A stretch of DNA of 64,000 bases from Kribbella turkmenica (GTDB taxonomy: Bacteria; Actinomycetota; Actinomycetes; Propionibacteriales; Kribbellaceae): the NCBI RefSeq assembly GCF_004348725.1, contig NZ_SMKR01000011.1, forward strand, positions 1-64,000, written 5' to 3'. The notes under the pieces are model-generated. The model had not been told where the DNA came from. It ran no database searches and was given only the letters and a program-made list of their open reading frames with translations. The translations under genes and the position numbers were made by a program. This document shows positions 59,409 through 59,533 of this stretch, in pieces. Positions within the stretch are counted from its first letter, which is position 1. The number at the start of each line of letters is the position of its first letter.

Positions 59409-59531
59409 ATGTCAGTGCATATGCCACGCCTCCGGCGCGGCGGGTCATGGGGCTCTGTCTCCCGGCCTTCCCTCGTCGCTCCGGTCGCTTCGCTCCCTCC
59501 GCTCCTCAGTCCAGGCCGGGAGGCCCCATGA
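59409..59531 (+). CDS. 40-codon leader mini-ORF, PRLRRGxSWG type
   Basis: An ATG-started frame whose peptide holds PRLRRGGSWGSVSRPS and ends LLSPGREAP. The TGA overlaps the GNAT ATG (ATGA). The N-terminal part matches the mini-ORF at 47944-48015 and the end matches the frame through copy A at 17602. Ribosome site weak. Confidence 0.45.
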   Translation: MSVHMPRLRRGGSWGSVSRPSLVAPVASLPPLLSPGREAP

Positions 59532-59533
59532 CC
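59421..59533 (+). repeat. dispersed leader repeat, copy B (fullest copy)
   Basis: Ends are inverted repeats (GGTCATGGGGC / GCCCCATGACC), giving a long hairpin with CTCCCGGCCT / AGGCCGGGAG as the inner stem and a GTCGCTTCGCTC core. The last 15 nt are the ribosome site GGGAGG, spacer and ATG of the GNAT gene. Confidence 0.7.

Follow-up and report, generated by a model that had tools for sequence, protein, structure and literature searches.

A short repeat in the genome of Kribbella turkmenica runs, at each of its occurrences in the DNA studied here, directly into the start codon of the next gene. This raises two questions: whether the repeat is a mobile element that inserts at gene starts and, if it does, how the genes tolerate it. 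We argue that, very probably, it is a mobile element, small and non-autonomous, which in Kribbella inserts at RTGAC(C) starts and is tolerated through translational coupling. Throughout, ‘the window’ denotes the whole stretch of DNA analysed, 64,000 nucleotides in length.

Three copies in the window

A covariance model of the repeat recovers exactly three matches in the window, which we call copies A, B and C. They are the same three that a preliminary description of this DNA had reported, and the shared peptides, the GGGAGG motif and the CCCC(A/G)TGAC ends are all found as described there. The features are listed below, with the basis of each in brackets.

15557-17605, minus strand: gene after copy A, 682 aa, beginning ATGACC in the element end (ORF reading)
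17600-17717, minus strand: element copy A, left start codon lost (covariance model, empty/filled loci)
46686-47951, minus strand: gene after copy C, beginning GTGACT, Abhydrolase_8 (DUF1023) (Pfam)
47944-48015, minus strand: mini-ORF of copy C (MTVVLPRLRRGESWGFDSRRPRD, then stop), stop 4 nt inside the next gene (ORF reading)
47946-48008, minus strand: element copy C, core deleted (covariance model)
59409-59531, plus strand: mini-ORF of copy B, 40 aa plus stop, its TGA overlapping the next ATG (evidence at this locus includes empty orthologues)
59416-59533, plus strand: element copy B (covariance model)
59423-59441, plus strand: hairpin 1 of copy B, GCCACGCC-TCC-GGCGCGGC (predicted fold, covariation)
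59443-59453, plus strand: left arm of copy B, GGTCATGGGGC, pairing with 59523-59533 (predicted fold, covariation)
59459-59468, plus strand: inner left arm of copy B, CTCCCGGCCT, pairing with 59513-59522 (predicted fold, covariation)
59513-59522, plus strand: inner right arm of copy B, AGGCCGGGAG (predicted fold, covariation)
59518-59523, plus strand: Shine-Dalgarno-like GGGAGG of copy B, within the stem (predicted fold)
59523-59533, plus strand: right arm of copy B, GCCCCATGACC, holding the next gene's start codon (predicted fold, covariation)
59528-60034, plus strand: gene after copy B, GNAT acetyltransferase, 168 aa (Pfam PF00583)

Copy B is intact. Its reading frame opens at ATG 59409, presumably the old start codon of the GNAT gene, and closes at a TGA (59529-59531) overlapping the GNAT start at 59528. 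In copy A the left ATG is gone, and the frame that reaches the overlapping TGA is left without its own start; the orthologous copy in K. kalugense retains the left ATGAC and is 1 nt short. Copy C has suffered an internal deletion, and its mini-ORF stops 4 nt into the downstream gene (GTGACTGA) rather than in a -4 overlap. The earlier statement that a frame with an overlapping stop runs through every copy thus holds for B, fails for C, and applies to A only as a frame that lacks its own start. As for the downstream genes, Pfam backs two of the labels originally assigned, GNAT and Abhydrolase_8 (DUF1023), whereas the 682-aa product after copy A, formerly called a glycosidase, gives no Pfam match at E≤0.001.

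Copy A also touches its other neighbour. The stop codon of the upstream gene is lost, and the protein enters the element by 14 residues, stopping near 17677; the repeat (17677-17717, minus strand) lengthens the C-terminus of that protein by the roughly 14 extra residues that it encodes.

Copy number, placement and empty sites

Searching the K. turkmenica genome with the covariance model, which was built on 32 diverse copies, yields 57 copies, compared with about 40 by BLAST. A pattern for the right end, allowing up to 3 mismatches, matches 52 times in the genome, and its reversed control not at all. The element measures about 115-119 nt and occurs mostly as single copies. The repeat is real, and far beyond chance.

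It is also restricted in its distribution. An exact pattern stopping before the start codon matched 105 DNA stretches in a collection of 84,980 species, all of them from Kribbella. Presence varies within the genus: among 58 genomes searched by BLAST, the element was found in 27 of 37 from Kribbella and in none of 21 from other genera of the same order. Searches of plasmids, phages and viral contigs gave no match to the element, and Rfam matched neither the window copy (at E≤1) nor the relatives discussed below (at E≤0.1). The open-access literature, which was the scope of our search and leaves out most subscription papers, yielded no account of Kribbella repeats or of similar repeats in related genera.

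In 53 of the 57 copies, the right end coincides exactly with the start codon of an ORF that is 80 aa or longer. The four exceptions comprise two inner copies of nested pairs and two remnants. As a background, 269 of 3683 RTGAC sites in 0.9 Mb of Kribbella DNA are start-like, so that about 4 (4.2) of 57 copies would be expected at starts; this expectation is conservative, because the background set itself contains 55 element-bearing starts. If the copies are independent, the excess has p = 2e-55. In named Kribbella genomes, (A/G)TGAC directly follows the right end in 104 of 111 cases, and the downstream ORFs are mostly long. These 111 right ends were gathered with a pattern that ends before the start codon, and they are hence unbiased as to the start. 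Placement at starts, which the preliminary description had put forward for checking, is therefore non-random in both collections. The genes downstream are functionally unrelated, mixing metabolism, transport and regulation.

Since orthologous sites in other Kribbella are empty, we can say that the element has been inserted. Empty sites contain RTGAC once and filled sites contain it twice, giving RTGAC-element-RTGAC at the gene start. For example, the empty aroB site of K. kalugense (L205) reads CATCTGGG-ATGACCAGGATCCGG, and the filled site of K. turkmenica reads CACCTGGG-ATGACC...element...GGCCCC-ATGACCAGGATCAGAG. Further pairs of empty and filled sites occur at nadB, metG, accD, a kdpE-like regulator and other genes, and at two loci of the window: the GNAT locus is empty in all seven genomes read, and the locus of copy A is empty in five and filled in K. 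kalugense. Insertion sites are not the same between close species.

The right flank is (A/G)TGACCGG at nadB, at GNAT and at a further locus (L023), whereas the corresponding empty sites differ; moreover, at filled sites C followed by a purine is over-represented just after RTGAC. On both patterns the junction can be placed only approximately, and the right RTGAC is perhaps derived in part from the element, in which case part of the apparent duplication may be element-borne.

Some copies lie outside RTGAC. Nested copies follow GTCGCT, and a K. jiaozuonensis copy (L189), located in a mutY-like gene, follows GCCGCT; at such insertions the new start codon is the element's own. The mutY-like gene was entered within its N-terminal coding region, and its start has probably been shifted. 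In the nested composites (L091, L094, L109, L112, L131, L146, L173, L185), one copy interrupts another; the internal site, after GTCGCT, is the same in each, and a 44-nt remainder follows. Such composites are found in several species, each with sub-types of its own, a pattern suggestive of concerted evolution.

Reading frame and RNA stem

The old start codon opens a mini-ORF of about 40 codons, whose TGA overlaps the new ATG. Among K. turkmenica copies with a recognisable left start, the frame leading to this TGA is kept in 46 of 48, and of the two failures one (L015) reflects a wrongly assigned left start; across species it is kept in 118 of 139 copies. Of 14 copies with unusual lengths (80, 101, 107, 110, 116, 128, 131, 134 nt and others), 12 preserve the frame (p = 8e-5). 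Copy A and a few others (L028, L155, L450) no longer have the left start or the frame, so coupling would be dispensable at some loci.

The peptide is another matter. Third codon positions of the mini-ORFs show no excess of variability. The first hairpin is read in different frames by different sub-types, as MPRLRRGGSWG, LAGPSAPAGSWG or NAAPPARGSWG, and in one copy (L449) the whole element is read in yet another frame, giving a wholly different peptide that is nonetheless open as far as the overlapping TGA. Because the frame is kept while the peptide is not, selection appears to maintain continuous translation rather than any particular amino acid sequence. Of the mini-ORF conservation proposed earlier, the continuity of the frame survives and the conservation of the peptide does not.

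In the predicted RNA fold, the Shine-Dalgarno sequence and the start codon lie within a long stem (-61 kcal/mol for 132 nt; z = -2.4). The Kribbella stem covaries, with 23 double-change cells in 32 sequences compared with 6.0±1.9 in shuffles. At the pair involving the start codon's first base, 22 of the 32 have U-A and 8 have C-G, so that ATG and GTG starts are each matched by the opposite arm. The inverted repeats, which the preliminary description placed at the ends of the element, form internal stems and are not terminal inverted repeats. A start codon locked in the stem, and opened by ribosomes travelling along the mini-ORF, would fit these patterns.

Placement, frame continuity and empty orthologous sites all support the original suggestion of a portable translation-coupling leader or MITE-like element, and they lead us to propose the following mechanism. 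Insertion at an RTGAC(C) start leaves RTGAC on either side of the element, as the empty sites show. The old start, along with its ribosome site, would then drive a short ORF through the element, and the element would supply a new Shine-Dalgarno sequence and a new RTGAC start, both held in the stem. A ribosome on the mini-ORF would melt the stem, terminate at the TGA inside ATGA, and restart on the gene. The gene's old initiation signal would thereby remain rate-setting, and the insertion would be nearly silent. Translation of the mini-ORF, termination followed by reinitiation, and near-neutral expression are what we infer from sequence comparison.

Relatives, rival explanations and known systems

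The Kribbella model picks up weaker relatives elsewhere in the order (in other genera, presumably Nocardioidaceae), and it matches in 25 of 151 genomes of a further family, f20, which appears to be Streptosporangiaceae-like. A joint model matches in 22 of 395 genomes of the class. In the joint alignment both partners have changed at 24 of 28 pairs, and there are 262 double-change cells versus 85±7; the alignment was fitted to the structure, but slid controls are far lower. In other actinobacterial families there is a double-hairpin family (L336-L419) with a conserved loop, CTTCCCTCSTCGCT...CTCSTCAGTCCAG, that is absent from Rfam. Relatives in the loci read lie off start codons, and some of them form tandem or inverted pairs. 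L388 is the single clear exception: in a genome of family f20 (G614), a single Kribbella-type stem at about 1500-1620 sits on the GTG start of an ABC-transporter-like gene, possibly through horizontal transfer. Since the relatives lie off start codons, the double hairpin would seem to predate placement at starts. It is probably needed for mobility; so far, the coupled version looks like a specialisation of Kribbella.

Alternatives to our account are taken here in order of decreasing probability. The strongest, which we consider a serious contender but doubtful, disputes only the targeting. It holds that insertion at RTGACC-like sites is untargeted, that copies in coding sequence are purged, and that copies sitting on start codons are retained: coupling renders them harmless, and deleting one imprecisely would destroy the gene. 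Insertions outside RTGAC (the nested copies and L189) do exist, relatives in other families lie off start codons, and frame conservation amounts to host selection acting on the copies. However, harmless intergenic copies should then last about as often, yet they are nearly absent (four exceptions among 57, two of them nested), and the same is true of the copies that have diverged least (L061-L090); if survival is assumed to be 1:1, itself a rough estimate, p = 3e-12. If insertion at RTGAC(C) starts is indeed targeted, one speculative and rather unlikely possibility is that the GGTCAT arm, which pairs with the element's own RTGACC end, selects targets by pairing with the RTGACC of gene starts, via an unrecognised mobilising enzyme, and that start-codon insertion arose inside an old actinobacterial double-hairpin family usually sited elsewhere, possibly the source of the mycobacterial interspersed repetitive units (MIRUs).

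We think it very unlikely that the element is a beneficial regulatory leader, an attenuator or riboregulator governing a set of genes. A conserved, covarying stem that hides the Shine-Dalgarno sequence and start is what such a leader might look like, but the genes downstream are a mixture, the sites vary among close species, and the same structure lies off start codons in other genera.

Very unlikely, too, is a MITE or REP moved by a Y1 transposase of the IS200/IS605 or RAYT type, or a retroelement, even though hairpins, a short fixed target and the absence of terminal inverted repeats would suit one. The Y1 transposase (PF01797) occurs in a single Kribbella genome of 38, which does not carry the element, and reverse transcriptase (RVT_1) in 7 of 38, missing from most high-copy carriers including K. 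turkmenica and K. steppae; both were rejected as mobiliser, as their distribution does not follow the element. A divergent mobilising enzyme may have escaped detection. A search for a longer autonomous version through orphan ends in 8-kb loci returned only deleted or nested copies, and the loci read contained no autonomous relative. Nor was there a recurrent transposase-like ORF near the distant relatives in those loci, where the commonest recurrent family looks like ABC transporters.

Least probable of all is a functional peptide encoded by the mini-ORF: PRLRRGGSWG and LLSPGREAP seem common to copies, but the lack of a codon-position signal, together with the changes of frame described above, leads us to reject it.

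The closest parallel is provided by MIRUs, which, apparently mobile, insert at start codons and carry an internal ORF coupled at -4 nt to the gene, an arrangement that probably limits the effect of insertion on gene expression (PMC12548453, a 2025 review citing Supply et al. 1997, Mol Microbiol 26:991); the MIRU at senX3-regX3 measures 53-77 bp (PMC4213456). Likewise, the Kribbella element is a short dispersed repeat in many copies, is inserted at start codons, as its empty sites attest, and has an internal ORF at -4 nt (ATGA) to the gene, judged by anatomy alone. It differs in its length (about 119 nt), its mostly single copies and its host. MIRUs are also said to be without clear dyad symmetry, whereas the Kribbella element is strongly structured, with a covarying double stem. 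By analogy, it would work like a MIRU; we liken the two in principle, not by sequence kinship, and do not claim that it is one.

Other systems share parts of this arrangement. In short-ORF coupling, an upstream ORF delivers ribosomes via overlapping stop and start codons (PMC6728339, PMC12548453), as the ATGA overlap would here, except that the Kribbella module has spread by insertion among unrelated genes. Rickettsia palindromic elements, mobile and about 150 bp long, are tolerated since reading frames stay open (PMC10969869), a likeness to the Kribbella element; but they sit within ORFs and are incorporated into the protein, and the Kribbella element lies upstream and ends on the start codon. 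With MITEs and REP/BIMEs it shares small size, non-autonomy, hairpins and multiple copies, its distant relatives forming tandem or inverted pairs. RTGAC on both sides, versus one in empty sites, might be read as a MITE-type target-site duplication, but the right copy is perhaps partly element-borne. Unlike them, it lacks terminal inverted repeats, and no partner transposase was found for it, its carriers being without Y1/RAYT.

These comparisons provide evidence that a mobile repeat can occupy dozens of gene starts, including those of aroB, nadB, metG and accD, via coupling, with its frame policed by selection. Sister species that have the same gene with and without the element offer natural replicates for measuring coupling, and the annotation of start codons in Kribbella is affected. 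The principle itself is already known from MIRUs and is here extended to another actinobacterial lineage; what is new is the strong structure, the clean empty sites, the quantitative test of frame, and a widespread double-hairpin family brought to light.
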